DNA of 54,882 bases, from contig NZ_AULJ01000040.1 of assembly GCF_000425225.1 (NCBI RefSeq), positions 1 through 54,882 on the forward strand. Direction: 5' to 3'. The position numbers were made by a program, and so were the translations under genes. This document shows positions 17,069 through 39,777 of this stretch, piece by piece. Origin of the DNA: Pontibacillus marinus BH030004 = DSM 16465 (GTDB lineage Bacteria > Bacillota > Bacilli > Bacillales > BH030062). The notes beneath the pieces were generated by a model. It was not told the DNA's origin. It made no database searches and was given only the letters and a program-made list of their open reading frames with translations. Every line of letters starts with the position of its first letter. Positions within the stretch are counted from its first letter, which is position 1.

Positions 17069-17080
17069 ATTTAACACCCC

Positions 17081-17839: not shown

Positions 17840-17934
17840 GGAAAACCACTCACTTTATAAATTCTTTCTATACACTTTAACACTTTTATATACCAATGTG
17901 TCAGTGGAAGTTTTTGAAAATTATATCTTAATAT

Positions 17935-17974: not shown

Positions 17975-17982
17975 CATATAAA

Positions 17983-19981: not shown

Positions 19982-19995
19982 GTCACCACTCCGTT

Positions 19996-20916: not shown

Positions 20917-20941
20917 CGCGCTCACATCCTTATAGCAAATT

Positions 20942-21847: not shown

Positions 21848-22077
21848 ATTGCTCCCTCCTCGTTTTGATGTTGTACATAAAATTATCAGAAAATAGATAA
21901 CATTTGTCATATTTTTAATCTTTCGTAAAGAAAACGAAAACTTGGGTCAATATATTACAAACACACTATTCAAAATTTTCATATAATTAGTCCAAGTCAT
22001 TAACAAGAAATCGATGTTGAGAGAAGTACCCTAAGATTACAATGACCTAAAAAATTGTTAAGGTGGTGAAATCATAA

Positions 22078-23154: not shown

Positions 23155-23197
23155 GCAGGAATTCATACAACAATTAGAAAAAGGGAGAGAATCTAAT

Positions 23198-24778
23198 ATG
23201 AGAAGAAACCGATTTGGAGCGCTACTTTTCGCCGGACTACTTACACTTATGCTTACACTAGTTGGTTGTGCTAGCGAACCTTCTAATTCGGCTGATGGCC
23301 AAGGAAATAACGATGAAACTAAAAAATCAGGTGAAGCAGGTGGTGAACTGAAGCTAGCAGTGCTATCTGATGCAACAAAATTAGACCCACATAAAGGAAC
23401 AGACATCCCTTCTGCCAATGTTTATCATGGCAAAATCTATGAAGGTCTAGTAAAACAAGATAAAAACATGAAAGTACAACCTGCCCTTGCTACAGAATGG
23501 GAGCAGATCAACGATAAGACATGGGAATTCAAATTGCGTGAAGGCGTTAAATTCCATGATGGTACAGAATTCACAGCAGAAGCTGTAAAGAAGACTTTCG
23601 AACGTATCTTAGATCCAGAAACTGCTTCACCACGTAAAAAGCTTTTTGAGATGATTACAGAAATTAAAGTAGTAGATCAGTACACAGTTCAATTAAAAAC
23701 AGAATATCCTTTTGCACCGTTACTCTCTAACCTTGCTCACTACTCAGCAGGAATCATCAGCCCTAAAGCTATCGAAAAACATGGAGCTGACCTTGGACAA
23801 AACCCTGTAGGTACAGGTCCTTTCAAGTTTGATAGTTGGACACCGGGTTCTCAAATCAAGCTAACGAAAAATGAAAATTATTGGGGCGATAATGCCAAAG
23901 TTGATAGTGTGGTATTTGAAGTAATCCCTGAAGACTCTACACGTATTGCTATGGTTGAGACTGGACAAGCTCACCTTGCTAACCCTGTCCCTGTTAACCA
24001 AGTCAAACGAGTTGAACAAAATCAAGATATGAAACTAAATCGTAGCGAAGGCTTAGGTATCGACTACCTTGGATTTAATCTTCAGAAAGAACCTTTTGAT
24101 AACAAAAAGGTACGTCAAGCTATTAACCTTGCTGTAGATACTGACGCTATTCTTAAAGGTGTTTATAACAACGTTGGTACAGAAGCAACTGCACCTATGG
24201 GACCTGGCGTTTGGGGACATAACGAAAACCTAGATGGTTGGGGATATGATGTTGAAAAAGCTAAGCAACTTCTAAAAGAAGCCGGTTATGAAGATGGCTT
24301 CAAAACTTCTATCTGGACAAATGACAACAAAGCTCGTGTAGACGTAGCAGAAGTTGTTCAGTCTCAATTAAAAGGCGTTGGAATTGACGTTGAGATCAAA
24401 GTAATGGAATGGGGCGCTTACCTAGACGCAACTGCTAAAGGTGAGCACGACATGTTCGTACTTGGTTGGTCTAACATGACGGGTGATGCTGATTATAACC
24501 AGTATTTCTTATTCCACTCCGAAGCAATGGGTACACCTGGTAACCGTACATTCTTCCAAAATGACCGAGTTGATGAGTTAATTGATAAAGGCCGTGAAGA
24601 ATCCGATCCAGCTAAACGCCAAAAAATCTACAATGAAGCACAAAAAATTGAAATGGAAGAAGCTCCAATGATTTTCCTTCGTAACGATGAAGATCTGGTA
24701 GCTGTAGGCAACAACGTAAATGGTTTCTGGATGCATCCAGCAGGTATTTATATGCTGAATGATGTCACAGTAAAATAA
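23198..24778 (+). CDS. oppA: Peptide ABC transporter substrate-binding lipoprotein
   Basis: A 526-residue extracytoplasmic solute-binding protein (SBP_bac_5). The signal peptide ends at the lipobox LVGC, so the mature protein is anchored by Cys-25. It has GELKLAVLSDATKLDPHKGT, the family signature region VKFHDGTEFTAEAVKKTFER, and GTGPFKFDSW. RBS AAGGGAGAGA. It lies 43 nt after the Xaa-Pro peptidase gene and across from the opp permease/ATPase operon whose missing binding protein it supplies. A strong terminator follows. Confidence 0.92.
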   Translation: MRRNRFGALLFAGLLTLMLTLVGCASEPSNSADGQGNNDETKKSGEAGGELKLAVLSDATKLDPHKGTDIPSANVYHGKIYEGLVKQDKNMKVQPALATEWEQINDKTWEFKLREGVKFHDGTEFTAEAVKKTFERILDPETASPRKKLFEMITEIKVVDQYTVQLKTEYPFAPLLSNLAHYSAGIISPKAIEKHGADLGQNPVGTGPFKFDSWTPGSQIKLTKNENYWGDNAKVDSVVFEVIPEDSTRIAMVETGQAHLANPVPVNQVKRVEQNQDMKLNRSEGLGIDYLGFNLQKEPFDNKKVRQAINLAVDTDAILKGVYNNVGTEATAPMGPGVWGHNENLDGWGYDVEKAKQLLKEAGYEDGFKTSIWTNDNKARVDVAEVVQSQLKGVGIDVEIKVMEWGAYLDATAKGEHDMFVLGWSNMTGDADYNQYFLFHSEAMGTPGNRTFFQNDRVDELIDKGREESDPAKRQKIYNEAQKIEMEEAPMIFLRNDEDLVAVGNNVNGFWMHPAGIYMLNDVTVK

Positions 24779-24860: not shown

Positions 24861-24894
24861 ACAAAAAGACCCAGAAGCACTTCTCCTGAGTCTC
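24861..24894 (-). terminator. Terminator of the sigma-54 operon
   Basis: On the minus strand an imperfect stem from GACTCAGGAGAAG to CTTCTGGGTC is followed by TTTTTGTTT, 10 nt past the glcF stop. It is the only good terminator seen between here and the promoter at 35.1 kb. Confidence 0.75.
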
Positions 24895-24903: not shown

Positions 24904-26199
24904 TTAAACTTGTGGTCCTGCTTCTAATAATAAATCTACTAAATGGACAGCATCCATTTGCTCTGACTGTCCTTCTCGCTCAATACCTAGCTTCATTTGC
25001 AATAGGCATCCTGGATTTGTCGTCACAACCCGCTCAGGATGTACAGAACATACATCTTTCATTTTCACATCTAGAATCTCCATAGACTCTTCATAATTTA
25101 CAATATTATAGATTCCGGCTGAGCCACAGCAAAACTCTGGGCGTTCTAATTCTTTCAACTCTAATCCGGGTACTTTTTTCAACAGTTCTAATGGCGGCGT
25201 TTTGACACCTTGGACATTCGACATATGGCAAGAAGGTTGATAAGTGATGGTTTTATCAACAGGCTTAGTGAAATGCAATCCTTCTACATCAACTAAAATT
25301 TGTGAAATGTCTTTCACTCGAGATACAAACTGTTCAGCACGTTCTCTCCATTTTGTTCCTTCTTCAAACAGGTGATGATACTCAATCAAACGAGCCCCAC
25401 AACCTCCAGCATTATTCACAATATAATCAATCTCTTCTTCTTCAAACGCACGAATGTTTCGCTTCGCCAGTTCAACGGAGTTTTGCACTTTTCCCGCATG
25501 AGCATGTAACGCACCGCAACAGGTTTGCTGTTCAGGGATCACAATCTCCAGCCCGCTTCGTACCATTAAATCAATTGTGTTCTGATTCGTTTCAAAAAAC
25601 ACACTGTCCATCACACACCCTGTAAAAAAGGCTACTTTAGCAGAAGCTTTTCGCTTTGGTAAGTACCGCTTCGTCCGTTTAGCTCTTTTTCTCGGAGATG
25701 GCTGTTTCGGTATAATCTGTTCAAAGTATCCTAAATGAAGAGGTGCCATCTTGGATACTGACGTTAGATTCGCAAAAGACTGGAGGCCCGATTTTTGATA
25801 AAACCACGTCATATTCCCTAGTGTCTTCATCCACCCTTTGGAAGGGAAAAATGATCCAAATAAGAAGTCCTCCGTTCGCTTTTGAGCTTGGGATTTCACT
25901 TCATGATCTTCAATCACTTCTTTAGCTCCCTCAAGGATTTGGCCATATTGAACATCTGTAGGACAAACCGTGGTACAAGCCATACAGCCTAGGCATTTTT
26001 CGATCGGATCACGTAAGTCTTCAACAGATGCTTTTCCTTCTGCCACCATTTTCACGAGGTTAATGCGTCCCCGAGGAGAATGGGTTTCCTTTTCCATCGT
26101 TTCATAGGTTGGGCAGGCTGGCAGACAATACCCGCACTGGACGCAATCAAATGTTTTGTCATAGTTGATGGTCTTCTGTAACTCTTGTAGATTACTCAT
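24904..26199 (-). CDS. glcF: Glycolate oxidase iron-sulfur subunit GlcF
   Basis: A 431-residue protein with two 4Fe-4S ferredoxin motifs (CVQCGYCLPACP and CLGCMACTTVCP) and two CCG domains (QQTCCGALHAHAG and PEFCCGSAGIYN). It passes electrons from the flavin subunit GlcD to the respiratory chain. I choose the ATG at 26199, which overlaps the glcD stop by 8 nt (ATGAGTAA), implying coupled translation; the longer frame to 26232 adds nothing conserved. There is no glcE, as in the B. subtilis ysfC-ysfD pair. It is the last gene of the long operon. Confidence 0.9.
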   Translation of the reverse strand: MSNLQELQKTINYDKTFDCVQCGYCLPACPTYETMEKETHSPRGRINLVKMVAEGKASVEDLRDPIEKCLGCMACTTVCPTDVQYGQILEGAKEVIEDHEVKSQAQKRTEDFLFGSFFPSKGWMKTLGNMTWFYQKSGLQSFANLTSVSKMAPLHLGYFEQIIPKQPSPRKRAKRTKRYLPKRKASAKVAFFTGCVMDSVFFETNQNTIDLMVRSGLEIVIPEQQTCCGALHAHAGKVQNSVELAKRNIRAFEEEEIDYIVNNAGGCGARLIEYHHLFEEGTKWRERAEQFVSRVKDISQILVDVEGLHFTKPVDKTITYQPSCHMSNVQGVKTPPLELLKKVPGLELKELERPEFCCGSAGIYNIVNYEESMEILDVKMKDVCSVHPERVVTTNPGCLLQMKLGIEREGQSEQMDAVHLVDLLLEAGPQV

Positions 26200-27595
26200 C
26201 GCGTAACACCAACTTCTGTCCCTTCTCGGCAAAAATCTTACCAGGATTCATAATCCCATTTGGATCCCATGCGTCTTTGATACGGCGCATCATACCTACC
26301 CCAGTAGCCCCAAGCTCACTCTCCATGAACGGAGCTTTCATTGTTCCAATTCCATGCTCCCCAGAAAGGGTCCCACCCAGGTCAATCGCAGCTTGGAAAA
26401 GTTCTTCTACAGCTTGTTCTGCTCGTTTCATCTCTTCCTGATCACGTTTGTCGCATAAGATATTGGGATGCAGATTTCCATCGCCAGCATGACCAAAACA
26501 AACGACCTCGACATTGTACTTTTGCTTAATGTCTTCAAGACGCGCCATCATATCAGGTATTTTACTACGTGGTACCGTTGCATCCTCTGAAACTTTTGTT
26601 GGCTTGATTTTCGCTATAGCAGGAGATACTTGTTTTCGTGCATGCCATATTTGATCTGCCTCTTCTTGGTTTCCTGGTACGACAACATCTGTAGCGCCAA
26701 TCGACTCCATGATCTCTTGAACGATTTCTTTTTCAACTTTTAGCGCTTCAGGATGCCCGTCCAATTCAACTATGACAATCGCTGCCGCATGAGTTGGTAG
26801 ACCGATTGGGTTGAAGTTTTCAACAGCTTGAATACAAGCCTGATCCATAAACTCTAGCTTGGAAGGTAAAACTCCTGAGGTAAGCGTTTTAGATATTGCT
26901 TTCCCTGCCGTATGTACATTATCAAATGTCACCATAAGAGTTTGGACAGCTGGAGGCTTTGGAACAAGCTTTAAAGTTGCTTCTGTAATAACACCCAAAG
27001 TTCCTTCAGACCCTACTAACAATTTAGTTAAGTCAAAGCCTGTGACGTTTTTAATCGTTTGTCCACCAGTGCGGATGACCTCCCCTTCAGGAGTAACGAC
27101 CTCAAGACCTAAAACAAAGTCCTTGGTAACTCCATATTTCAAGCCACGGGGACCACCTGAGTTTTCAGCTAAGTTACCTCCGATTGTCGCTACATGTGCG
27201 CTACTTGGATCGGGTGCATACATCAGTCCATGCTTCATCGCTTCTTCATTAATACGAGCGGTTAACACACTCGGGGATACAGTGACTGTTAAATCATCTA
27301 CTCTTAAGTCAATGCTTTCTGGCCACTGGGACATATCAAGAACAATCCCACCATGAACAGGTAATGGACCACCACTCAAACAAGTCCCCTGCCCTCTCGG
27401 ATATACTGGAACTTTATACTCGTTGGCCACTTTCAAGATCCCAACGACTTCATCTCGATTACTTGGTTGAACGACTACTTCCGGAAGGTGCTCGCCAAAG
27501 GAAGCATCAAAGCTATAACTATATCGATCTGCTAAACTCGTTAAAATGCGCTCTTCCTGTATATGCTTTTGTAAAGCTTCCTTCCACTGTTCCAT
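26192..27595 (-). CDS. glcD: FAD-linked 2-hydroxyacid oxidase GlcD
   Basis: A 467-residue flavoprotein of the glycolate/D-lactate dehydrogenase class. The PCMH-type FAD domain includes VPVYPRGQGTCLSGGPLP, and DPSSAHVATIGGNLAENSGG; then GSEGTLGVITEATLKL. The C-terminal FAD-oxidase domain has FGHAGDGNLHPNIL with its metal-binding histidines and LSGEHGIG. It oxidises a D-2-hydroxy acid such as glycolate; the actual substrate depends on the operon's unknown pathway. RBS AAAGGAGC. It starts 23 nt after the amidohydrolase-like gene. Confidence 0.92.
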   Translation of the reverse strand: MEQWKEALQKHIQEERILTSLADRYSYSFDASFGEHLPEVVVQPSNRDEVVGILKVANEYKVPVYPRGQGTCLSGGPLPVHGGIVLDMSQWPESIDLRVDDLTVTVSPSVLTARINEEAMKHGLMYAPDPSSAHVATIGGNLAENSGGPRGLKYGVTKDFVLGLEVVTPEGEVIRTGGQTIKNVTGFDLTKLLVGSEGTLGVITEATLKLVPKPPAVQTLMVTFDNVHTAGKAISKTLTSGVLPSKLEFMDQACIQAVENFNPIGLPTHAAAIVIVELDGHPEALKVEKEIVQEIMESIGATDVVVPGNQEEADQIWHARKQVSPAIAKIKPTKVSEDATVPRSKIPDMMARLEDIKQKYNVEVVCFGHAGDGNLHPNILCDKRDQEEMKRAEQAVEELFQAAIDLGGTLSGEHGIGTMKAPFMESELGATGVGMMRRIKDAWDPNGIMNPGKIFAEKGQKLVLRDE

Positions 27596-27618
27596 ATAAA
27601 CGTGCTCCTTTCATTGAA

Positions 27619-28497
27619 TCAAAACAATAATGTTTCTGGATTTTGAACGATCATCCTTTTTATCTCTTCTTCCCTAATTCCACACTCTAATAAACGAACG
27701 ACGAATTCTTGTAACCCCTGGACTGGTGTAATGTTATGGGGCTGTCCATAGTCTGTGACTAAAACACAAGCATCCACCCCAACTTCCTTGATACTATCAG
27801 CCATTTGTTGGATCGTACAATTTTGGAAATCTTCCCCGCAAGCTAAGTAACACTTTTCAATAAGACACCCTTGAGCCGCTAATTTCTTTTGAAGATCCAT
27901 TGGAACTTGAGCAATGCCTAAATCTGCATGTTGTATCAAAATTCGTTTCACGCCTATTTTTTGAGCTTCATCTACTAAGACATCCACCTCATCAGGTGCA
28001 AGATGCCCTGTTGCTAAAATCGCATCATAAGAAGCGATCCCCTCTAAAATGCGTTTAACTTCATCTTTGATACTTCCGTCATTATTCAGGACAGTTAAGG
28101 TTGAAGCTGAATCATCGAGCTCCTTTTTACTATTAAAAAAACGACCTTGTTTATGCTCAGCAAAATATTTTGCATGCTGTTTTGCTGAAATAGTGGGCAT
28201 CCAAATCACTTTTGCTCCCATTCGAAGTGCCATGTCTACTGCATAAGATGAGAGTCCGCCTGTATACAAATTACACACCAAACCACCATAGATATTCATA
28301 TCGGGCACCTTGTCACGAATTAGCGTAGCACGATCATGTGTAGTACCTTCATGTGCTTTCAGTAATAGGCCTCCCATACCTGCTCGCCTAGCCTCTTCAA
28401 CCAATTCCCAATCTGTTTGCTTTCTCGGAAATGCGCTAGGGGAGCTATGAACATGAAGATCATAAGCTCCCTTTAGTAATGGGTGATAAGTTGTCAT
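27619..28497 (-). CDS. Amidohydrolase-like protein (DUF6282 type)
   Basis: A 292-residue TIM-barrel metallohydrolase candidate. HxH metal ligands occur in AYDLHVHSSPSAF, with further candidate ligands in LLKAHEGTTHD, ATGHLAPDEVD, LIQHADLGIAQ and VTDYGQPHN near the C-terminus. The spacing fits an amidohydrolase-superfamily barrel, and the sequence resembles the DUF6282 group, whose reactions are unknown. It begins 2 nt after the preceding hydrolase gene, indicating tight co-expression. A role in opening a cyclic or amide intermediate of the imported compound is inferred from context. Confidence 0.75.
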   Translation of the reverse strand: MTTYHPLLKGAYDLHVHSSPSAFPRKQTDWELVEEARRAGMGGLLLKAHEGTTHDRATLIRDKVPDMNIYGGLVCNLYTGGLSSYAVDMALRMGAKVIWMPTISAKQHAKYFAEHKQGRFFNSKKELDDSASTLTVLNNDGSIKDEVKRILEGIASYDAILATGHLAPDEVDVLVDEAQKIGVKRILIQHADLGIAQVPMDLQKKLAAQGCLIEKCYLACGEDFQNCTIQQMADSIKEVGVDACVLVTDYGQPHNITPVQGLQEFVVRLLECGIREEEIKRMIVQNPETLLF

Positions 28498-28499
28498 AA

Positions 28500-29381
28500 C
28501 TACAACGCCTCTTGGAAAAAGGTATCGAGTTCTTCTACCAATGCTGTAAACTCTTCATGTTCGCTGTACATAAAGTCATTATGTTTTCCATCGATTTCAT
28601 AAAACGTTTTTGGACCTGTCGCAGATCGATAAAGTGCTATGGATTCTTCAATTGGATGTAGAAGATTTTTCTTTCCATGTGCGACAAAAAGCGGTGTTTC
28701 CACAAGATTTTTAGCGGATTTTTCTGCATCTAAGTCAATGACAGACTCTGTGAATTGAAGCTGGGTCTGGCCACCAAAACCTTTCTTCGAAGCGAGTTCC
28801 TTCTGTACATAATCCTTAGTAGCTGGGTCTAATGGATAATGGAAAAATGGGTCTTCTAGCTTCGATTTACCTGTGGTCACACGTTTAATACGGTCTTCAC
28901 GCACAGCTTCTAAAACCTTGGACCAGCTCTCATAAGAATGAACTGTTTTTAGCCAGCGCTCTCCATGATAAAAGCCATTTAATGCAGCTACACCTGCAAC
29001 ATCATTCTGTTCAGCAACCCGGACTACATTAGAACCACCCATGCCCCAGCCGATTAAGCCTATTCGATCTTCATCCACTTCATTTTGGAAGCGTAAAAAG
29101 GTTAGCGCATTGTGAATATCCTCCACTTGTTCTTCTAGCAGTACACGAGTCGGATCTCCTTCACTATCAGCAAACCCACGATAGTCAAAGCCCATACAGA
29201 TATATCCCTTCTCTGTTAGGAATTTAGCAAACATCTTTGGATAAAATTCATTTACTCCCTGGTAACCTGAGTTTATGATAATGGCTGGATATTGTTTATT
29301 TGGGTTATAGGAATCTGGATAATAAAAAGTACCCTCTAATTTTAGTCCATCACTGTAAAATTGAATTGCTTTCTCGATCAT
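28500..29381 (-). CDS. Alpha/beta-hydrolase-fold protein without nucleophile serine
   Basis: A 293-residue protein of the dienelactone-hydrolase/acetyl-esterase-like fold. It has YPAIIINSGYQG for the oxyanion strand, FDYRGFADSEGDP, and a likely acid/His pair near FVAHGKKNLLHP and EIDGKHNDFMYSE. The nucleophile elbow reads GLIGWGMGGSN: the central residue of G-x-Nuc-x-G is Gly-113 instead of Ser, Cys or Asp. Either it is not a classical esterase or Ser-117 two turns away substitutes. It lies in the sigma-54 operon between the nitrilase and amidohydrolase-like genes. Confidence 0.8.
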   Translation of the reverse strand: MIEKAIQFYSDGLKLEGTFYYPDSYNPNKQYPAIIINSGYQGVNEFYPKMFAKFLTEKGYICMGFDYRGFADSEGDPTRVLLEEQVEDIHNALTFLRFQNEVDEDRIGLIGWGMGGSNVVRVAEQNDVAGVAALNGFYHGERWLKTVHSYESWSKVLEAVREDRIKRVTTGKSKLEDPFFHYPLDPATKDYVQKELASKKGFGGQTQLQFTESVIDLDAEKSAKNLVETPLFVAHGKKNLLHPIEESIALYRSATGPKTFYEIDGKHNDFMYSEHEEFTALVEELDTFFQEAL

Positions 29382-29422
29382 ATAAAAATCTCCCTTCTGG
29401 CATACTAAAAATTAATTTTTAT

Positions 29423-30268
29423 TCAATCAGCATTTTCTTGGCTAGCAATCTCTTGGTAATGTCGAATGGTTAAGTCCACATCTTCATCTCTCATGATCGG
29501 CAAAATCTTTCGAATTTCTTTCACTTTAGAATAATCGATTTCACATGTCTGAGTAGATTCATCATTAAATGGACATTGATCGACCACTTGACCATACGGA
29601 TCAATAACTTTTGAATTCCCGTAAAATGATTTATCCTCTTCTTCCCCTACACGGTTTACGATAATGACATAACATCCATAAATCCCTGCATAGAATTGTC
29701 CAAGTCTCTCCCAGCCTATGGAACTTGAATATGTACTTCCAAGCCCTCCTTCAGGACTGTTTATCAAACAAACTAATAAGGAACAATGTTTGTGTGCCGC
29801 GATGTGAGGGAGTGATGGATGCCAAAGGTCGTTACAAATGAGCATAGAGGATGTGAAATCTTGTATCTCATCAACTTTCACCTTCTTCCCTCTGGCGAAA
29901 TATTTTCCCTCTTCGAAAATGCCATATGTTGTAGGGTAGATTTTTCGTTGAATAGAACTTACTTCACCATCTTTAATAAAAACAGAAGAATTATAAACAC
30001 GTGTCCCTTTTCCATTTTCTATAAATCCAAACATTACATTAATTCCTGTCTCTCTTGAAACTTCACAAATTTGCTTTATTTCATGAGACCCTAAGGTAAT
30101 GGCTAAATCGTACACTTTTTCCTTCAATAAATACCCTGTTAGAGACAATTCAGGAAAAACAATCAAGTCTGTCTCGTTTTTGTATTGATAGATTAACGTG
30201 ATCATGTTTTCTAAGTTTTCTTGGACATCTCCAAATACTGGATTGGTTTGAGCCATAGTGACTCTCAT
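29423..30268 (-). CDS. Carbon-nitrogen hydrolase (nitrilase superfamily)
   Basis: A 281-residue amidase/nitrilase-fold enzyme. The catalytic triad is visible: Glu in IVFPELSLTGY, Lys in QRKIYPTTYGIFEEGKYF and Cys in LICNDLWHPSLP. The triad spacing is normal. It would hydrolyse an amide, carbamoyl or nitrile group; the substrate is unknown. I start at the ATG 30268, which is 8 nt after GGAG; the GTG at 30277 is too close to that site. It follows the MmgE/PrpD gene by 76 nt without a terminator. Confidence 0.88.
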   Translation of the reverse strand: MRVTMAQTNPVFGDVQENLENMITLIYQYKNETDLIVFPELSLTGYLLKEKVYDLAITLGSHEIKQICEVSRETGINVMFGFIENGKGTRVYNSSVFIKDGEVSSIQRKIYPTTYGIFEEGKYFARGKKVKVDEIQDFTSSMLICNDLWHPSLPHIAAHKHCSLLVCLINSPEGGLGSTYSSSIGWERLGQFYAGIYGCYVIIVNRVGEEEDKSFYGNSKVIDPYGQVVDQCPFNDESTQTCEIDYSKVKEIRKILPIMRDEDVDLTIRHYQEIASQENAD

Positions 30269-30344
30269 ACAAAACACTCCAATTACTAGTTTCGAGCACT
30301 AATTCTTATTACTCCCAGGTCCTTTATGCCTTGCCTCTCATTAC

Positions 30345-31685
30345 TTATGGTTTATAAAAAGGGAAATTAATTAATCTTGTTAATTCCTTAATATTCAGTA
30401 GTTGTTCTATTGAATGAATCATTTTATAGAGTTCATTGCTTCTTTCTTGACCTAAATGCGGAACGACTAATCGATAAAATTTCTCTTGTTTATCTACCTT
30501 ACTTAAAGGATAATCCCAATCCCCTTGAGCTTGTTGAACTGCAGAAGAATGTACCTTTCCATCATTCATATACACTTCTATCCAACATAATGCTTTTTTC
30601 GGAAATTCCTTATCAAGTTCTTCATCAACATAAACCTCTACCTTCTTCATTAAATCTACTACGTCTTGATTGCTCAATTTCTTAGTCACTTCATTTGGAC
30701 CTACATTTTGAAAAACAAAATAACAAGCCATTGGGTAAGGAAGATTGTATTGTGCCTCTTCAGTATTGTTTGGTGGCTTTTTAGAGAGACTAGCAGCCTC
30801 TTTAAATGTATAAACCTTCACACTATTTACATCTTTGTATAAAATCTTGTTCTTCTCCATGAGTTCCTTTATTGCTTCAATAGGTGGTTGCGCCCATCTA
30901 CAACACGCATAAGGTTTATAATAAAGCTCTTCTATTCTGTATCTTTGCTTTAGATCATTAATCAATCCTCTAGAATTCTCTGTATTAAATAAAGAGGGGA
31001 TACCTGTAAACCCTTCTTGCGCTAATATTGCTGAACTAACTCCTGTCATGCATCCCCATGAGATCCCATCTTTCAACATAGAGGGATGATCGATGCCCCT
31101 GAGCATGGGGGAATAAGTAGAATGATATTCAGCAACTCCTAAAGCGTGATAGATTTTATCTACAGATAGATTTAAAATTCTACTCACTCCTGCAGCTGCT
31201 CCTATAGCCCCCCATGATCCGGTACAATGATATTCAGGTCTTAATTCATGTGCTATTATGCCAGCTCGTATCCCGACCTCATATGACATAAGAAGAGTTG
31301 AAAGGAATTCCTCTCCTGTAATTTGCTTTTCTTCCCCGACTGCTAATATAGCAGGGAATAAGACTGCGCCAGGATGTCCTTTTACAAGTCGGTGGCCATC
31401 ATCAATATCCAGTGCATTTGCCATAGTTGCATTGACAAAGGAAGCTCCAGTAGCACTTAATTGACCTGATGTGAGCAATATTGAACTTGCTCCCTCTTTC
31501 CATTGGCTCTGAGCAAAGCGTTTAGCATGTTCAACTACTGGTGTGTTTGAACCTGCTATTGAGCTAGCCACTATATCAGCCAAAGCATCCTTTAGAGATT
31601 CCATAACCTCTTCAGGGATTGTGGTGATAGATTCTTCTAAAATGTACTCATGTAACCTATCTTGTAATTGTGTAATAAATTTCAT
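30345..31685 (-). CDS. MmgE/PrpD family protein
   Basis: About 446 residues. The family includes 2-methylcitrate dehydratase, cis-aconitate decarboxylase and iminodisuccinate epimerase. Recognisable parts are VNATMANALDIDDGHRLVKG, HPGAVLFPAILAVGE, FHST-like AEYHSTYSPMLRGIDHPS and KDGISWGCMTG, and YYKPYACCRWAQPPIEAI late. It lacks neighbours of the methylcitrate cycle, and the transporter/amidase context suggests a different acid with an epimerase or dehydratase role; that is inference. ATG at 31685 after AAGGTGAGG is taken as the start, but a GTG at 31691 cannot be excluded. Confidence 0.85.
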   Translation of the reverse strand: MKFITQLQDRLHEYILEESITTIPEEVMESLKDALADIVASSIAGSNTPVVEHAKRFAQSQWKEGASSILLTSGQLSATGASFVNATMANALDIDDGHRLVKGHPGAVLFPAILAVGEEKQITGEEFLSTLLMSYEVGIRAGIIAHELRPEYHCTGSWGAIGAAAGVSRILNLSVDKIYHALGVAEYHSTYSPMLRGIDHPSMLKDGISWGCMTGVSSAILAQEGFTGIPSLFNTENSRGLINDLKQRYRIEELYYKPYACCRWAQPPIEAIKELMEKNKILYKDVNSVKVYTFKEAASLSKKPPNNTEEAQYNLPYPMACYFVFQNVGPNEVTKKLSNQDVVDLMKKVEVYVDEELDKEFPKKALCWIEVYMNDGKVHSSAVQQAQGDWDYPLSKVDKQEKFYRLVVPHLGQERSNELYKMIHSIEQLLNIKELTRLINFPFYKP

Positions 31686-31720
31686 CCTCACCTTAATTCC
31701 TATATTCCCTAGAGATGATC

Positions 31721-32641
31721 CTATTCAATTAAGCCTTGTTCTTTTAACCAATTTCGTGCTACCTTTGAAACTTCTTTATGCTCTACATCAACCTTATAAT
31801 TTAATTGCATCATGGCTTCTGTGTTTAAATTACCAGAGACCTTGTTCATTAAATCGTTTAACTCAGGATATTTATTTAATACTTTCTCCCTTACAACTGG
31901 AGCGACATTATATGCAGGGAAGAAATTTTTGTCATCTTCTAATGCTAATAAATTAAACCCTTTAATTCTTCCATCTGTTGCAAAACCAACCGAGACATCA
32001 ACTTGTCCATCTTTTAAAGCATTATAAAGTAATCCTGAATCCATCTTTACTACATTTTTAGATGGAAATTCGAATCCATAATGTTCTTGCAGTCCTTTCA
32101 TGCCGTCCTCACGAGCATAAAATTCTGCGTTTGATGCGAATTTTAATTTATTCGGATTTTTATCAACGTAATTAGCTAAATCGGATATGGATTTAATCCC
32201 TAGATTCTTTGCCTTTTCCTCCTTCATTAATATGGAGTATGTGTTATTTAAATCAGCTTTTTCTAACCACATAAGGCCATCTTTTTCATCTGTTTCTTTT
32301 ACTTTTTGATAAGCTTTTTCTGAATCAGCTAGTGGATCTTGTTTCTGAAAAATAACTAAAGCTGTTCCTGTGTACTCCCAATACATATCAACCTGCCCAT
32401 TCTCTAGTGCTTTCCTAACCACAGTGCTTCCCATATTACTGGCTTCTTCAACATCATAGCCTTTTTCCTTAAGGTAGATAGACGTCATTGTGGAAAGAAT
32501 CTGTTGTTCGGTAAATCCTTTACCCCCTACCTTAATTGTCCCTTCGGAATTCCCTGAGCTTCCACCTGATGCGTTACTACAAGCAACAAGACTAAAAACT
32601 AATAACAGAACCATAGTTCCAATTAAAGAAAACTTTTTCAT
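31721..32641 (-). CDS. OpuC-type ABC transporter substrate-binding lipoprotein
   Basis: A 306-residue binding protein of the OpuAC/OsmF quaternary-amine group. The signal peptide ends in the lipobox LVACSN. The mature start GTIKVGGKGFTEQQILSTM and EEASNMGSTVVRKALENGQVDMYWEYTGTA are characteristic, as is PAYNVAPVVREKVLNKYPEL. Relatives bind glycine betaine, choline, carnitine or similar compounds. The ligand here may be a nutrient rather than an osmolyte because catabolic genes follow. RBS AAGGAGG. Confidence 0.9.
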   Translation of the reverse strand: MKKFSLIGTMVLLLVFSLVACSNASGGSSGNSEGTIKVGGKGFTEQQILSTMTSIYLKEKGYDVEEASNMGSTVVRKALENGQVDMYWEYTGTALVIFQKQDPLADSEKAYQKVKETDEKDGLMWLEKADLNNTYSILMKEEKAKNLGIKSISDLANYVDKNPNKLKFASNAEFYAREDGMKGLQEHYGFEFPSKNVVKMDSGLLYNALKDGQVDVSVGFATDGRIKGFNLLALEDDKNFFPAYNVAPVVREKVLNKYPELNDLMNKVSGNLNTEAMMQLNYKVDVEHKEVSKVARNWLKEQGLIE

Positions 32642-32657
32642 TTTTATTTCCTCCTTT

Positions 32658-33395
32658 TTAAGCCATATCTAAATCTCTTTTTAACCCTTTCGATATAACA
32701 AGCTTCTCAAATCCACCGAGTAAAAAGTCGATGGAGATTGCTAGAATGATAACGGGTACTGTTCCAGCTAACATAATTCCAGTATCGTATAAGGAGATTC
32801 CAGTAAAGATCAAGTCACCTAGTCCTCCTCCTCCTATAAGAAAAGCTAGTGCAGCTGACCCAACATTTATTACCACCGCAGTTCGGATTCCACCCATAAT
32901 GGCATACATCGCATTTGGTAATTCTAATTTCCATAAAATTTGTCCTTCTTTCATCCCCATCCCTCTACCTGCATCTATAATAGAAGAATCTACATTGTTG
33001 ATGCCTGCAAGTGTATTACGGAGGATAGGTAATAATGAGTTAAACCAAAGTGCAAAGACAGCAGTCTGCCAACCAAGACCCAAGTAACTCATAACCAATG
33101 CTAATATAGCTAAACTCGGCACGGTTTGCCCAACATTTGCAAAGTTCATCACTACTCCTTCAAACTTTTTAAATTTTGGTCTTGTAATAAACACACCTAA
33201 TGAAACCGCTACCAAAATTGCTAAAATAGAAGAGATACTTACAAGCTTAATGTGTTGTTTAGTTAAATAGAGTAGATCACCAGGGTTATCAACAATAAAC
33301 TGAAAGGCTCCAGCAAAATAAGCCCAAAGTAAAATTGCAACTATAACCACATAAAGTGAAACTTTAATAACACCTACCATTCTACGATTCGACAA
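32658..33395 (-). CDS. OpuC-type ABC transporter permease (second)
   Basis: A 245-residue permease with five or six membrane spans and the binding-protein-dependent transport signature (VDSSIIDAGRGMGMKEGQIL then WKLELPNAM). It resembles OpuCD/YehW. It is adjacent to the binding protein gene (16 nt) and to the ATPase (12 nt). With the permease at 34427-35077 it forms a heterodimeric channel, the OpuC rather than OpuA arrangement, in which the binding protein is a separate lipoprotein. Confidence 0.88.
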   Translation of the reverse strand: MSNRRMVGVIKVSLYVVIVAILLWAYFAGAFQFIVDNPGDLLYLTKQHIKLVSISSILAILVAVSLGVFITRPKFKKFEGVVMNFANVGQTVPSLAILALVMSYLGLGWQTAVFALWFNSLLPILRNTLAGINNVDSSIIDAGRGMGMKEGQILWKLELPNAMYAIMGGIRTAVVINVGSAALAFLIGGGGLGDLIFTGISLYDTGIMLAGTVPVIILAISIDFLLGGFEKLVISKGLKRDLDMA

Positions 33396-33407
33396 CTTTA
33401 TCCCTCC

Positions 33408-34409
33408 TTACCTCGCAGCTAATAACTGATCAGGATGAACATTCGTCAACTGATCAAAATCAGAAACCTTTATAACCCCTAAAACATTTTGAAATTCATC
33501 TACAACTTTTCCTTCACCAACTGGACTAGCCAGTAAAAGAGATAGTGCAGTTTTTAGCGTATCTTGATTAGATACTTCTGGCGTATTATTGCTTATTTCT
33601 CTAACTTGTCTGGTTTGAAAACCTACAATATGTGATACAAGATCTTCAACTTTCAATAAAGTTAAACGCTTCAGCATGCGATCCTGACCAATGAATTCTA
33701 CTACCTTATCATTTTTAGGATTAGATAATATTTGATCAGGGGTATCATGTTGCATAAGGTTTCCAGAATCAAAGATCGCTATTTTATCTCCAAGCCTTAA
33801 AGCCTCATCTACATCATGACTTACAAACAAGATCGTTTTCTTTAATTCCTTTTGAATTCGTTTAAATTCATTCTGAAGATGCTCACGAATAACTGGATCC
33901 AATGCCCCGAATGGTTCATCCATTAACATTACAGGTGGATCGCCAGCTAATGCACGAGCTACACCTATCCTCTGTTGCTGACCACCTGACAGTTCAAAAG
34001 GGAAGCGCTTTCTAAATTCATCTGGATTAAGTCCCATCATCTCCATTAACTCATTGTATCTTGTTTTTATTTTAGACTGATCCCAGCCTAACATTTTTGG
34101 AACAACACAGATGTTATCTTCAATTGTCATATTAGGAAATAAACCATTTTGTTGGATGACATATCCAATTGACCGTCTAAGCTTGATGGTGTCCATATCT
34201 TTAATGTCTTTCCCATTCACTTCAATTGTTCCATCAGTTATTGAAATAAGTCGATTTACCATTCTTAGGAGTGTGGTTTTCCCGCAACCTGAAGGACCTA
34301 AGAAGACACAAGTTTCTCCTTCATCTACATGTAAATTAATATGGTTAACAGCTGTAACTTCTTTATCACCAGTTTTATAAACTTTCGATACATCTTTAAA
34401 TTGAATCAA
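33408..34409 (-). CDS. OpuC-type ABC transporter ATP-binding protein
   Basis: A 333-residue ATPase with Walker A GPSGCGKTT, the Q-loop YVIQQNGLFP, signature LSGGQQQRIGVARAL and Walker B PVMLMDEPFGALD. The C-terminal 90 residues, with VSNQDTLKTALSLLL and VLGVIKVSDF, look like one poorly conserved CBS-type repeat rather than the tandem pair of OpuCA, so osmotic gating may be weaker or absent. It lies between the two permease genes. Confidence 0.9.
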   Translation of the reverse strand: MIQFKDVSKVYKTGDKEVTAVNHINLHVDEGETCVFLGPSGCGKTTLLRMVNRLISITDGTIEVNGKDIKDMDTIKLRRSIGYVIQQNGLFPNMTIEDNICVVPKMLGWDQSKIKTRYNELMEMMGLNPDEFRKRFPFELSGGQQQRIGVARALAGDPPVMLMDEPFGALDPVIREHLQNEFKRIQKELKKTILFVSHDVDEALRLGDKIAIFDSGNLMQHDTPDQILSNPKNDKVVEFIGQDRMLKRLTLLKVEDLVSHIVGFQTRQVREISNNTPEVSNQDTLKTALSLLLASPVGEGKVVDEFQNVLGVIKVSDFDQLTNVHPDQLLAAR

Positions 34410-34426
34410 CCTTTACTCACCACCTG

Positions 34427-35077
34427 TTATGATTTTACTCCCTTGTATGAAAGCTTTTTTTGTAATACACCTAAGGCAAAATCTACGGATATCGCTAACA
34501 AAGCAACAGAAATCGCCCCAACCTGAATCATTGTTGTATAACTTGTAGAAATACCTCTTGCGATGTACATCCCTAATCCTCCAGCCCCTATGTAAGCAGC
34601 AATGGCACAAATCCCGATCGTCAACACAATAGCCATTCTTACACCTGCCATAATTACCGGGAGGGCTAATGGAATTTCCACCTTGAAGAGACGTTGCTTC
34701 GTTGTCATCCCCATTCCAACTGCTGCATCCTTCGTATTTGGATCAACATTTTTAATCGCAATATACGTATTACGGATTATAGGCAGTTGAGAATATAGAA
34801 TTAAAGCTACAATCGCTGGCACAAATCCAATACCTTGATTAATTAATGAAAAAAGAGGAATCATGAGTCCAAATAAGGCTATACTTGGAATTGTCATAAT
34901 AATTCCTGCAATAGCCAAAACTAAGTTCGCTAAAGACTCATGTTGAGAAATATAAATCCCAAAAGGGACTCCTGTTAAAACTGAAATTCCGACTGCTAGT
35001 CCTACCAACTTGATGTGCTCTAAGGTTAAGTTGAGCAATTCAATCCAATTAGATTGAATAAATTCTAGAATCTCCAT
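34427..35077 (-). CDS. OpuC-type ABC transporter permease (first gene of operon)
   Basis: A 216-residue permease, comparable to OpuCB/YehY, with about five membrane spans and the signature loop NVDPNTKDAAVGMGMTTKQR then LFKVEIPLALP. It is the first gene after the sigma-54 promoter, about 25 nt from the predicted transcript start, with ribosome binding site GAGGGGGTGA. Its product should assemble with the other permease at 32658-33395 and the ATPase. Confidence 0.88.
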   Translation of the reverse strand: MEILEFIQSNWIELLNLTLEHIKLVGLAVGISVLTGVPFGIYISQHESLANLVLAIAGIIMTIPSIALFGLMIPLFSLINQGIGFVPAIVALILYSQLPIIRNTYIAIKNVDPNTKDAAVGMGMTTKQRLFKVEIPLALPVIMAGVRMAIVLTIGICAIAAYIGAGGLGMYIARGISTSYTTMIQVGAISVALLAISVDFALGVLQKKLSYKGVKS

Positions 35078-35112
35078 CGTTTCACCCCCTCTATCCTATT
35101 ACAAATTAATAA

Positions 35113-35129
35113 TGCAAATTTCATGCCAA
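35113..35129 (-). promoter_or_regulatory. Sigma-54 (SigL) promoter
   Basis: On the minus strand the sequence reads TTGGCATGAAATTTGCA. GG (35127-35126) and GC (35115-35114) are separated by exactly 10 nt, as required for -24/-12 promoters, and both flanks match the consensus TGGCAC-N5-TTGC with one mismatch. It is 36 nt before the permease start. The next gene upstream encodes a sigma-54 activator. Confidence 0.85.
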
Positions 35130-35185: not shown

Positions 35186-35210
35186 CTTTGTAAAAATTTT
35201 TTGACAAAAG
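35186..35210. promoter_or_regulatory. Candidate upstream activator site
   Basis: An imperfect 25-bp dyad (CTTTGTAAAAATT / TTTTTTGACAAAAG) is centred about 95 nt upstream of the predicted sigma-54 transcript start, the usual distance for an NtrC-family enhancer site. Confidence 0.45.
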
Positions 35211-35231: not shown

Positions 35232-35269
35232 AACAAAAGCTACTAACTTGGATGTTAGTAGCTTTTGTT
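35232..35269 (-). terminator. Terminator after the NtrC-type regulator
   Basis: ACAAAAGCTACTAAC pairs perfectly with GTTAGTAGCTTTTGT around a 6-nt loop, just after the stop, followed on the minus strand by a T-rich stretch. It isolates the sensor operon from the sigma-54 promoter. Confidence 0.88.
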
Positions 35270-36622
35270 TCACCTATTTTCTGAGAAGTGCTTGTTCATT
35301 TTGTAAAGAAGGCTTTGTCGTGAAATCCCTAACCTTTTGGCTGCAGCTGCTGGTTGGCCAAGTCCTTCATCAAGAGCTTCTAAAATCATTTTCTTTTCTA
35401 CATCTGCGATTCGTTCTGGTAATGACGAGCTTTTCGATACTGTTGAGGACTCTTTTCTTTCGCTAATCTCTTGTGGGAAATCATCTATTGACAATTGATC
35501 TCCAGGACAAAGAACAACAGCTCTCTCTATCGCATTTTGAAGCTCACGTACATTACCGGGCCAATGATAATCCATAAGTAGATTTATTAGTTTCGTTGAA
35601 GCCTGAAAATCTTTACCGTGCTTCTGCCTATGATATTCTAAAAAACTCTCTACAAGCATTGGTATATCATCACTACGTTCTCTAAGTGGCGGAATATAAA
35701 TGTCTACAATATTTAGACGATAAAACAAGTCTTCACGAAACTCTTTAAGATTTACTAATTCTTTAAGGTTTTTATTAGTTGCTGTTATAATCCTCACATC
35801 AACAGTCTGTAACTTGTCACTTCCAACGCGCATAAAGGATTTATCTTGGGTAACTTGAAGTAACTTTGCCTGAAATGCTGTAGAAATTTCCCCTATCTCA
35901 TCTAAAAAAATCGTCCCTCCATTGGCCGCTTCAAATTTCCCCTTACGTGTAGAGGTTGCTCCTGTAAATGATCCTTTTTCATGTCCAAATAATTCGCTTT
36001 CTAAAAGCTGTTCAGGTATGGATGCACAATTGACCGGAACAAAGGGAGCATTCCTTCTTTCACTTTGTTCGTGTATCATCTGAGCTACTTTGCTTTTTCC
36101 TGTCCCACTTTCTCCCTGCAATAAAACACTTGCGTCAGTTGGAGCAACTCGTTGCACTAGCTGATAAATTCGTTTCATTATACTGCTAATGCCAAGTAAC
36201 TCATTTGAAGTCTCCATTCTATGTAATTTTTCCTTTAAGCTTTGGTTTTCTTGATTCACTGAAAGCCAATCCAAGGCTTTCTGAATGATAATCAATAACT
36301 CATTTAATTGAATTGGCTTAATAATATAATCGAAAGCTCCTACCTTCATTGCAGCAACAGCATTTTCAACATTGCCATAAGCTGTCATCATTATATAAAT
36401 TTTGTTAGGATACATTCCCCTGAATTCTTCCAGCAGTTCTAATCCACTTGTGTCAGGAAGCTTGAGATCAAGGAAGACTAACTCAGGATCATGTTCTAAT
36501 ATTTTATTTCTAGCCTCTTGTCCATTCGCTGCTGTTTGAACATCATAACCTTTTTTCGTTAAGGACGAGTGAAAAATTTTCAGGATCTTCGGTTCATCAT
36601 CTACTAGTAAAATGCGCTTCAT
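35270..36622 (-). CDS. NtrC-family sigma-54-dependent response regulator
   Basis: A 450-residue activator with three domains: receiver (LLVDDEPKI, phospho-Asp in LVFLDLKLPDTSG), AAA+ ATPase (residues about 140-375) and a Fis-type helix-turn-helix (AAAAKRLGISRQSLLYKM). Walker A is LQGESGTGKSK, and the sigma-54 contact loop reads HEKGSFTGATSTRKG, a GAFTGA variant with Ser at the second position. GGTIFLDEIGE is Walker B. Two-component activators of this type are less usual in Bacillaceae, where sigma-54 activators are mostly metabolite- or PTS-controlled. It overlaps the kinase gene by 4 nt. Confidence 0.92.
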   Translation of the reverse strand: MKRILLVDDEPKILKIFHSSLTKKGYDVQTAANGQEARNKILEHDPELVFLDLKLPDTSGLELLEEFRGMYPNKIYIMMTAYGNVENAVAAMKVGAFDYIIKPIQLNELLIIIQKALDWLSVNQENQSLKEKLHRMETSNELLGISSIMKRIYQLVQRVAPTDASVLLQGESGTGKSKVAQMIHEQSERRNAPFVPVNCASIPEQLLESELFGHEKGSFTGATSTRKGKFEAANGGTIFLDEIGEISTAFQAKLLQVTQDKSFMRVGSDKLQTVDVRIITATNKNLKELVNLKEFREDLFYRLNIVDIYIPPLRERSDDIPMLVESFLEYHRQKHGKDFQASTKLINLLMDYHWPGNVRELQNAIERAVVLCPGDQLSIDDFPQEISERKESSTVSKSSSLPERIADVEKKMILEALDEGLGQPAAAAKRLGISRQSLLYKMNKHFSENR

Positions 36623-38733
36623 AACTCATCCTCCCCTTCACTTTGGTGCGTGATTTTCGGCAACTGAATTTCCATAGTTGTATGGCCCCCTTCTGAGGAA
36701 GCTGTTACTTTTCCACCATGTTGGGTTACAATTTCATGTGCTATGGCTAGTCCTAAGCCTGTTCCCTCGTTCTTCGTTGTATAAAAAGGTGTAAAAATCC
36801 AATTTAAATGAGATTCAGGTATTCCTCCACCATTGTCCTCTAATATAATATTCCAACCATCTTCTTGATCTGATATTTCCACTTTAAAGGTGCCCTGACT
36901 TTCAATAGCTTGTATCCCATTTAAGATCACATTTAAGAATACCTGTGAAAGATGACTAGAATCTCCAAGTACATAAGCTTCTTCTACTCCATAATTCTTT
37001 ACCAACTGAATTCTACGGTCTTCAAATTGGTTCCGTAATAATGTGAGTAACTCATTTAATAATACGACAAGATTCACCTTTTCTCTGTGCTCAGTCATAT
37101 CACCTCTAGACATTTTTAAGAAATCAGCAAGTAAATCATTTAACCTTTCAGAGGTTTCAAGGATATCATCAGTCATCTCTTTAATTAGATTTTCATCAAT
37201 TTCATCTTCAGATAAATCGATTTGTATCGCTTCTGTTGCAGCTTGAATAATGCTAATTGGGTTTTTAATCTCATGAGCAATCCCAGCAGTTAATTGTCCA
37301 AGTGAGGCTAAGCGTTCGCTTTGTCTTAAAAACTCTTCTAACTTTTTGATCTCTCCCACATCACGTATGACAAGAATCGCTCCAATAATTTGATCCTCAT
37401 CACCAGTGAATAAGGAAGAATACATTCGAACGTCATGCTTTTTTCCTTCTTTGTCATATATGTAACTTTCGAGTTCATCAAATTGCTTTCCCTCTTTTAA
37501 CGTTTTCCACGAAATAAACTCATGTTTTGCTGCCTTCAAGGGCAAATCAATAATATATTTTCCTAATGCTTCTTCTCTTTCAAATAAAGTGAGCTGTTCT
37601 GCCCCTTTATTAAAAGTCATAATGCGTCCATCTTGGTCAGTTGTGATCACTCCATAAGGGACGGATTCCAAAATATAAAAGAGTCTTCTCTCTTTATCCT
37701 TCAAATCACTAGCCATTTCATTCATGGTGAAGGATAAGTTTTCAATCTCATCTCCTGTTTCAATAAGATCGAAACTTGACCGACTTCCCTCCTTATATTG
37801 ATGTGCTTGATTTGTTAATTTGGTAATAGGTTTAACCACCTTTGAGACCCCAACAAATGTGAATAAAATGGTAACCAGTAATGCTATGATAAATCCACGC
37901 AGAAGTACAGATTGAACATTATTAGCAGGCATCAAAGCTTGGTCTATAGACTCACCTACAATGAGTCCAAATCCTCCTGACTCAATAGGACGATATGCTA
38001 AGAGCATTTCACTTCCGAATAATTCTCCACGCCAAATTCCGAATCGACTCTTATACAAATAATTTTTTAAGGTTGAATTCCTTAATGTCTTTCCTAAATA
38101 GTAGTCATTCGTATGTGCAAGAATGGTACCATTTTGATCAACTAAGGCGTTAACACCTTCCTTACCTAACTTTACCTGTCTTAAGTACTCAGACAAGACA
38201 TGTAAGTTTACATATCCAATTACCGCACCATTATAATCCCCTTTTTCGTTAAGGATGGGATAACCTAAAGCAATAGTCCTTCTACCATCATCTAATTCAA
38301 TAAGGTTTGAAATATAGTAAGTTTTACTCCATTCTAATCGCTCCACAATTTTCTTATAGGAAGTAGAACTGGAATGAACATTTGGAATCGTTGAAACTGG
38401 AGTTCCTGATTTATTAACAATATTCATATATAGATAGAGTGGATTGTTGACAATAATTCGTTCCATTTCTTCTCTATATAAGTCCTGATTATCATTTATA
38501 CGATAAAACTCAGAAATCACTCGCGCATCATTGACCATTTTCTCAAACATAAAGCTAGTTTTTTTACTGATGGATTTTGCCATCAAATCATTTCGATACT
38601 CAATTTCCTCTCTCATTGAATGGAAAAGTAATTGGGTAGTAAAGTAATAGATTGCCGTTAAAGAAACAGTAGCAACAATGATTGCAACGATTAAGTAACG
38701 CTTTGTTAACTTCGAGTATATGAGATCTCGCAA
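36619..38733 (-). CDS. Cache-HAMP-PAS sensor histidine kinase
   Basis: A 704-residue membrane kinase. A first membrane helix (about 13-35), an extracytoplasmic double-Cache-like domain (about 40-275), a second helix (ALLVTILFTFVG), a HAMP linker, a PAS domain (YGVITTDQDGRIMTFNKG) and a kinase core follow. The phosphorylated His is in GIAHEIKNPISI; NGIQAIES, EDNGGGIPESHL and GTGLGLAIAHEI form the ATP site. Start is TTG at 38733 after GGGGTGA. Cache domains often bind small acids or amines, so the signal may be the substrate of the neighbouring importer. Confidence 0.9.
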   Translation of the reverse strand: MRDLIYSKLTKRYLIVAIIVATVSLTAIYYFTTQLLFHSMREEIEYRNDLMAKSISKKTSFMFEKMVNDARVISEFYRINDNQDLYREEMERIIVNNPLYLYMNIVNKSGTPVSTIPNVHSSSTSYKKIVERLEWSKTYYISNLIELDDGRRTIALGYPILNEKGDYNGAVIGYVNLHVLSEYLRQVKLGKEGVNALVDQNGTILAHTNDYYLGKTLRNSTLKNYLYKSRFGIWRGELFGSEMLLAYRPIESGGFGLIVGESIDQALMPANNVQSVLLRGFIIALLVTILFTFVGVSKVVKPITKLTNQAHQYKEGSRSSFDLIETGDEIENLSFTMNEMASDLKDKERRLFYILESVPYGVITTDQDGRIMTFNKGAEQLTLFEREEALGKYIIDLPLKAAKHEFISWKTLKEGKQFDELESYIYDKEGKKHDVRMYSSLFTGDEDQIIGAILVIRDVGEIKKLEEFLRQSERLASLGQLTAGIAHEIKNPISIIQAATEAIQIDLSEDEIDENLIKEMTDDILETSERLNDLLADFLKMSRGDMTEHREKVNLVVLLNELLTLLRNQFEDRRIQLVKNYGVEEAYVLGDSSHLSQVFLNVILNGIQAIESQGTFKVEISDQEDGWNIILEDNGGGIPESHLNWIFTPFYTTKNEGTGLGLAIAHEIVTQHGGKVTASSEGGHTTMEIQLPKITHQSEGEDEL

Positions 38734-39735: not shown

Positions 39736-39777
39736 AAGCACAAGAAGGACGAAAAAATTCAAGGAGGACGATCTTAA

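Follow-up and report, generated by a model that had tools for sequence, protein, structure and literature searches.

A ten-gene sigma-54 operon with its own sensor in Pontibacillus marinus: a candidate catabolic unit for a betaine-like compound

Introduction

What is taken up and broken down by an operon that brings its own sensor, promoter, importer and set of enzymes? The question is raised by ten genes on the minus strand of a 54,882-nt stretch of DNA from the salt-loving Bacillus relative Pontibacillus marinus BH030004 = DSM 16465 (contig NZ_AULJ01000040.1 of assembly GCF_000425225.1; genome size 4.28 Mb), which we analysed as a whole and call the window. An original prediction, made from the letters alone, had read these genes as one sigma-54 operon for the sensing, uptake, amide cleavage and 2-hydroxy-acid oxidation of a compound that it left unnamed. 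We report here on the operon, its control circuit and its relatives, and propose, with a confidence somewhat short of even, that it is dedicated to the catabolism of compounds of one zwitterionic, betaine-like class. Having a sensor, a promoter and an importer of its own, the operon is experimentally tractable, and it has relatives in several environmental Bacillota.

Results

Ten genes form one unit between two strong hairpins

The ten-gene set at 24904-35077 is real: all ten open reading frames (ORFs) were confirmed, and profile matches agree with the family predicted for each. They are given here in the order of transcription, together with the two flanking hairpins.

35232-35269, minus strand: terminator-like hairpin between regulator and operon (16 pairs and a T run; -22.8 kcal/mol, z -6.6)
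34427-35077, minus strand: OpuC-type permease 1 (PF00528; orthologues 67-98% in OpuC-type loci)
33408-34409, minus strand: OpuC-type ABC ATPase (PF00005; TIGR01186 proV at 318 bits, cut-off 327)
32658-33395, minus strand: OpuC-type permease 2 (PF00528, BPD_transp_1)
31721-32641, minus strand: betaine-type substrate-binding lipoprotein (OpuAC, PF04069; ProX pocket residues mostly retained)
30345-31691, minus strand: MmgE/PrpD-family enzyme (PF03972 and PF19305)
29423-30277, minus strand: nitrilase-superfamily amidase (PF00795, CN_hydrolase; Glu43-Lys112-Cys148 intact)
28500-29381, minus strand: alpha/beta-hydrolase-fold protein without nucleophile (Gly113, Asn239, His267)
27619-28497, minus strand: DUF6282 amidohydrolase-like TIM barrel (PF19799, 240 bits)
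26192-27595, minus strand: GlcD-like FAD 2-hydroxy-acid dehydrogenase (PF01565, FAD_binding_4, and PF02913; TIGR00387 at 493 bits, cut-off 568)
24904-26232, minus strand: GlcF-like Fe-S subunit (PF02754 CCG, Fer4)
24866-24894, minus strand: terminator-like hairpin after GlcF (12 pairs and a T run; z -4.8)

Counted from GlcF upward, the intergenic gaps are -41, 23, 2, 41, 67, 29, 16, 12 and 17 nt, as short as had been predicted. The true GlcF start is probably an internal ATG near 26199, which would make the overlap with GlcD smaller, because orthologues start at about that point. Both flanking hairpin stretches fold far better than shuffled sequence. Inside the operon, where no terminator had been expected, the same strand holds two further terminator-like matches, of 6 and 7 pairs and both within coding sequence; the count over the scanned region (5, against 7.9 in shuffles) is not above chance. 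Sigma-70-type promoter-like matches are also present in the scanned region, though in lower numbers than in shuffled sequence (26 versus 45). A chance arrangement of the ten genes is excluded because the arrangement is conserved across the loci described below.

A sigma-54 promoter and a sensor pair precede the operon

The features presumed to control the operon lie directly upstream of it, as follows.

35113-35129, minus strand: sigma-54 -24/-12 promoter TTGGCATGAAATTTGCA, top-scoring sigma-54-like site of the window
35188-35207, no strand assigned: upstream activator-type palindrome TTGTCAAAAAATTTTTACAA, one mismatch to TTGTAAAN6TTTACAA
35270-36622, minus strand: NtrC-type sigma-54 activator (response regulator; PF00158, PF00072, PF02954; GSFTGA loop in the translation)
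36619-38733, minus strand: dCache/PAS sensor histidine kinase (PF02743, PF13426, PF00512, PF02518; HAMP below cut-off)

Profile matches thus bear out the Cache/PAS kinase and the NtrC-type activator that had been predicted at this place, and the predicted GG-N10-GC promoter is near consensus and the best site of the window, scoring 14.2 on a weighting of our own with a maximum of 14.7 (next best site, 13.4). The exact pattern TTGGCAYN5TTGCW occurs seven times in the 4.28-Mb genome, the operon promoter included, and its reversed control once. Next to five of the six other matches stands a gene of activator or PAS type, going by translations read by eye, and the sixth, within a gene, may be due to chance. 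The genome also encodes sigma-54 itself (PF04552 match at C10).

Sigma-54 sites accompany one of three cluster arrangements

Relatives of the DUF6282 gene were collected in a scan that gave 227 confirmed stretches, from which 80 loci were kept; among 150 relatives of the genome, 10 have DUF6282. When the window proteins were compared with these loci, three arrangements emerged around a shared core of hydrolase, DUF6282, GlcD and GlcF, often joined by the nitrilase. In arrangement 1 (Brevibacillus, Neobacillus, Bacillus, Peribacillus, Schinkia, Melghirimyces and others), kinase/activator and OpuC genes stand alongside the core enzymes. Arrangement 2 joins the core to a carrier of the sodium/glutamate-symporter family (PF03616) and a GntR-type regulator. 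Arrangement 3, found in Brevibacillus, Aneurinibacillus, Alicyclobacillus, Jeotgalicoccus and two metagenome-assembled Bacillota, has no alpha/beta gene, a metallo-beta-lactamase (MBL)-fold protein in six of seven loci, an MFS or Nramp-like protein, and in four of the seven a relative of L-2-hydroxyglutarate oxidase (562 bits in the one tested, cut-off 299). As a separate observation, the Jeotgalicoccus clusters L034 and L049 hold an Nramp-family protein (tested in L049) in the place expected of a substrate carrier. MmgE turned up in 7 of 45 loci, all of them with OpuC genes. A search for the joint neighbourhood, proposed with the original prediction, therefore finds the gene set recurring in several Bacillota genera; it is not peculiar to this genome, and the core also occurs with other carriers and regulators.

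We compared sigma-54 sites at a single threshold in 19, 13 and 7 loci of the three arrangements. Of the 19, all but L054 showed a recognisable kinase or activator and all but L040 and L043 showed OpuC genes (18 and 17 loci, respectively); the symporter was present in 12 of the 13 (not L026), as was GntR (not L025), and the MBL gene in six of the seven (not L060). The comparison did not include loci L038, L051, L039, L042, L053, L065 and L014 or repeat copies of a genome. Sites before cluster genes were found in 19/19 loci of arrangement 1, in 0/13 of arrangement 2 and in 0/7 of arrangement 3. The 19 loci hold 48 sites, 35 of them intergenic and before a gene, and all 35 precede cluster genes; in other genomes such sites stand directly before DUF6282 and before the alpha/beta gene. 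This pattern, read from sequence, makes a strong case for sigma-54 control and upholds the idea of one sigma-54 unit with its own sensor.

A candidate activator site recurs at a mostly constant distance from the promoter

Upstream regions of 33 of these 35 intergenic sites (one L045 site and the L047 site were excluded) and of the window promoter, 34 in all, were searched for dyads. GTAAA-N6-TTTAC was present in 11/34, whereas in 20 shuffles no dyad reached more than 5; simple A/T dyads were also raised, up to 9/34. At no more than two mismatches, TTGTAAAN6TTTACAA, a consensus derived from the very regions in which it was counted, was found in 14/34 (shuffle mean 0.48, maximum 3) and was absent from the other 20, and in 11 of the 14 regions that carry it the palindrome ends 57-59 nt before the -24 element. 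The exact pattern combining palindrome and promoter had 12 matches in 20 genomes, one each in 12, and none with the reversed control. Those compared by coordinates (for example in G002, G150, G166, G167 and G173) fall at the cluster; the match in G174 is on a different contig from L040. Taken together, a control circuit of activator site and sigma-54 promoter appears well supported by this comparison of loci.

The binding protein keeps a betaine-type pocket

The prediction of an uptake system stands, and this one is dedicated: the operon holds the genes of an OpuC-type importer. The binding protein retains six of the seven ProX betaine-pocket residues, namely the counterparts of K13, T66 and R149 and three of the four cage tyrosines, the fourth being Phe. 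Across binding proteins, K41, Y90, T93, Y135, R177 and Y244 are found in 9/9, and the position of ProX Y190 is Phe (F220) in eight and Leu in one. We take the roles of these residues to be those of the cation cage and the carboxylate contacts in ProX. The pocket supports a betaine-type zwitterion as the putative ligand class of the importer. Ergothioneine was considered, since EgtUC binding proteins are among the relatives in the PDB, and was rejected because no ergothionase-type lyase is present in the operon.

The enzymes are of known kinds, and three score below equivalog cut-offs

DUF6282 is predicted to form an amidohydrolase-type TIM barrel (AF2 model with mean pLDDT 93.9 and amidohydrolase-fold matches), with an HxH motif and further His and Asp residues as putative metal ligands: H15, H17, K47, H49, H165, H190 and D249 are found in 49/49. 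We found no description of DUF6282 in the open-access literature, and the operon offers a handle on it. Elsewhere, DUF6282 has other neighbours. In a metagenome-assembled Bacillota, three genes resembling 5-oxoprolinase subunits, as read from sequence, are divergent from it (L055, 7192-9802, minus strand). In L075 (9989-16154) the neighbours of a distant DUF6282 (about 37%) are TRAP-type genes, a PIG-L protein and a 4-carboxy-4-hydroxy-2-oxoadipate aldolase (266 bits against a cut-off of 179), which may form the lower part of a pathway for aromatic acids; a like arrangement, judged by ORF lengths only, is seen in L069, L071, L074, L078, L079 and L081, the aldolase having been tested in L075 only.

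The nitrilase-family hydrolase was correctly predicted: its Glu-Lys-Cys triad is intact in 17/17 rows, in line with the superfamily. Two-domain nitrilases of about 580-630 amino acids, with Gly for the catalytic Cys in the second domain, were seen in L021-L023, L026, L029, L044, L046, L047, L048 (split in two ORFs), L054, L058 and L062. For the MmgE/PrpD enzyme the nearest solved structures by sequence are Bacillus subtilis IRG1 and IDS-epimerase. The predicted GlcD/GlcF pair is likewise confirmed by the matches to PF01565/PF02913 and PF02754/Fer4. A glycolate pathway was rejected, as both proteins fall below the equivalog cut-offs and GlcE is missing from the operon.

An alpha/beta-fold protein without its nucleophile alternates with an MBL-fold protein

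The alpha/beta protein of the predicted gene list has the fold and has lost the catalytic Ser and Asp. Against solved serine hydrolases, the nucleophile Ser is replaced by Gly113 (in GWGMG) and the acid Asp by Asn239, leaving only His267. GWGMG, Asn239 and His267 are found in 28/28 rows, which include three pairs of one genome fetched twice, and the GxSxG triad is not found. Ordinary serine-hydrolase chemistry is therefore unlikely. The structure model is mediocre (mean pLDDT 76) and the active-site reading rests on sequence, in which many further columns are invariant (11/11). The family is sharply delimited: of 397 genomes in the order, 14 have a match, and even the weakest of these reaches E 1e-147 (threshold 1e-50). 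All eight relatives with a close DUF6282 (at least 52%) are among these 14; as for the two with a distant one, G016 has no alpha/beta gene, and G099 is not among the 14, its inclusion in the search being uncertain.

Among 18 genomes tested directly, the alpha/beta gene was present in 12/12 of the OpuC or core type and in 0/6 of those with an MBL gene; MmgE adjoins it in 7/12 short stretches. All six MBL proteins carry HxHxDH, and the two tested had their best matches in acyl-homoserine-lactonase and pyridoxolactonase models, far below cut-off. We offer as a tentative idea that in a betaine-type route not described before, the nucleophile-less alpha/beta enzyme and the metal-dependent MBL-fold enzyme are exchangeable for one lactone or ester opening, and that entire modules combining uptake with control, one of OpuC and sigma-54 and another of symporter and GntR, have been swapped around a fixed core.

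Repeated change of uptake and control modules beside a lasting enzyme core

A tree of DUF6282 and GlcD was built from 37 rows with both proteins, after loci lacking one or the other and two duplicates had been dropped. The window and its sister genome G002 group in an eight-row set with six symporter-type rows from Halobacillus and Pontibacillus (100/99 support), while 14 of the 17 OpuC-labelled rows sit in another clade together with two symporter-type rows. Well-supported branches force at least four changes of the OpuC label, and a tree that unites every OpuC-labelled row in a single clade is rejected (log-likelihood lower by 549, p-AU 4.9e-74). We conclude that the core enzymes have had their uptake and control modules replaced more than once. 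With carrier and regulator exchanged and the core constant, the cluster is a clear example of a pathway evolving by modules.

Neighbouring genes

Downstream of the operon (window 13322-24778) lie genes for a gamma-glutamyltransferase, an Opp/Dpp-type permease, an M24 peptidase and a GsiB-like binding protein; in G002 (L012) an ORF equal in length to the gamma-glutamyltransferase directly follows GlcF. On the other side, beside the kinase, ectA and ectB (39226-41058, plus strand) score above cut-off without ectC, and an ectoine synthase gene is found at the end of another contig (C8:229-603). ectB is also near the cluster in G002; the other fetched loci gave three weak ectB matches (23-27%) and no ectA. 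Ectoine breakdown, considered because ectA and ectB adjoin the kinase, was rejected on these weak matches elsewhere and because no ectoine-hydrolase-type gene was recognised in the operon.

Discussion

A proposed route and the points that weigh on it

In the route we propose, the kinase would respond, on the outside of the cell, to the compound or one of its breakdown products and phosphorylate the activator; bound to the palindrome some 58 nt upstream of the -24 element, the activator would open the sigma-54 promoter. The OpuC-type importer, whose pocket is conserved and points to the ligand class, would take the compound into the cell. There the MmgE/PrpD enzyme and the nitrilase may prepare it by an isomerase or lyase step and by C-N cleavage, the latter suggested by the nitrilase. 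The core pair of alpha/beta-fold protein and DUF6282 would open ester, lactone or cyclic-amide bonds, as suggested by DUF6282 and the MBL exchange. A 2-hydroxy acid thus freed, possibly 2-hydroxyglutarate-like, would be oxidised to the 2-oxo acid by GlcD/GlcF, with electrons going to the respiratory chain; its formation is suggested by GlcD/GlcF and by the L-2-hydroxyglutarate oxidase of the sister clusters. The complete pathway of the original prediction is borne out as far as genes for sensing, dedicated uptake, nitrilase and GlcD/GlcF go, and the order of the steps, the substrate and the products, its amide and its 2-hydroxy acid among them, are what we infer.

Several observations weigh against this route. 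The operon encodes no demethylase, oxygenase or trimethylamine lyase, that is, no enzyme attacking an N-methyl group, and a quaternary amine would therefore be freed by hydrolysis only. One of its supposed hydrolases lacks its nucleophile, GlcD falls below the glycolate-oxidase cut-off, and within the stretches fetched the MBL-type loci have no nitrilase. Elsewhere the core enzymes are found beside a sodium/glutamate-symporter-like carrier or an MFS or Nramp-like protein, and such partners suggest an anionic core substrate. Locus L064 combines kinase, activator, binding protein and sigma-54 sites with the symporter, an indication that sigma-54 goes with the kinase/activator and not with OpuC. 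Having one mismatch in its palindrome, the window genome is missing from the 12 with the combined pattern, and with one mismatch allowed the palindrome alone is not rare in that genome (30 matches on both strands, 16 + 14; control 11, 5 + 6). Lastly, PMC10104139 describes a dCache_1AM amine motif with a conserved Asp; 18 aligned kinases have Asn at the likely position, matched by eye only, and in our reading of the alignment the sensor domain does not clearly carry the motif.

The lack of an enzyme attacking N-methyl groups and the anion-type carrier found with the core elsewhere are the reasons why we hold the betaine-like class a little under even and leave some room for a substrate of another kind. 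What the pathway degrades might be anionic and of C5 type, for example a lactone or amide of 2-hydroxyglutarate, with the OpuC importer repurposed and its betaine-like pocket misleading. This is doubtful, though it draws on the symporter-family carrier beside the core enzymes in 12 of the 13 loci of arrangement 2, on the L-2-hydroxyglutarate oxidase family member in MBL-type clusters and on the lactonase models as best, if sub-threshold, matches of the MBL proteins; it has to contend with six pocket residues identical in every binding protein and a seventh that is Phe in 8/9, and with an MmgE gene confined to loci with OpuC genes. Far less probable, indeed scarcely credible, is a unit that serves mainly as an osmoprotectant importer with the enzymes as incidental neighbours. 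An OpuC-type importer with ectA and ectB adjoining would fit such a role, but in many genera the enzymes stay together whether or not the importer is present, and in other genomes DUF6282 and the alpha/beta gene are directly preceded by their own sigma-54 sites, on which ground we rejected osmoprotectant uptake alone.

The role of the alpha/beta-fold protein is a question of its own. Non-enzymatic members of the alpha/beta-hydrolase fold exist, and with Ser changed to Gly and Asp to Asn in all 28 rows the protein might be a non-catalytic partner (chaperone, subunit or sensor) that leaves hydrolysis to DUF6282 and the nitrilase alone. We regard this as rather unlikely, given that His267 is retained throughout, that many columns are invariant, and that the protein is complementary to MBL proteins with an intact HxHxDH in 6/6 genomes. 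For a family without a catalytic serine that is nevertheless kept in the cluster, the operon provides a handle. Neither the gene set nor the GWGMG motif was found described in the open-access literature, where a search for GWGMG gave only unrelated work; this agrees with the original prediction, which knew of no pathway described with this gene set.

Comparison with known systems

Like AtoSC and Bacillus sigma-54 units such as that for sarcosine utilisation (PMC4941409), the betaine-like catabolic unit proposed here has its activator beside the target operon, and the Pontibacillus unit has its own sensor kinase. Its target genes are different, and its kinase and activator score well below the cut-offs for AtoS (283 of 646 bits) and AtoC (466 of 714 bits), respectively. 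With the OpuC/OpuB/ProX-type importers of compatible solutes it shares two permeases, an ATPase and an OpuAC-family binding protein with most of the ProX pocket, whereas the Pontibacillus genes lie in a sigma-54 operon with catabolic enzymes and have Phe at one cage position. The MmgE/PrpD enzyme has both Pfam domains and the common D..H..GHP stretch of its family (cis-aconitate decarboxylase, IDS epimerase), but is unlike 2-methylcitrate dehydratase PrpD, at 53 bits against an equivalog cut-off of 950. DUF6282 is only 9-17% identical to amidohydrolase-superfamily dipeptidases and phosphotriesterase-like lactonases. GlcD and GlcF resemble glycolate oxidase GlcDEF and D-2-hydroxy-acid dehydrogenases in pairing an FAD subunit with an Fe-S CCG subunit, and differ from GlcDEF in the missing GlcE and in their scores (493 of 568 and 230 of 333 bits, respectively). 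Every part is of a known kind. What is new to us is how the parts are combined, the retention in the cluster of a family without its nucleophile, and the swapping of modules.

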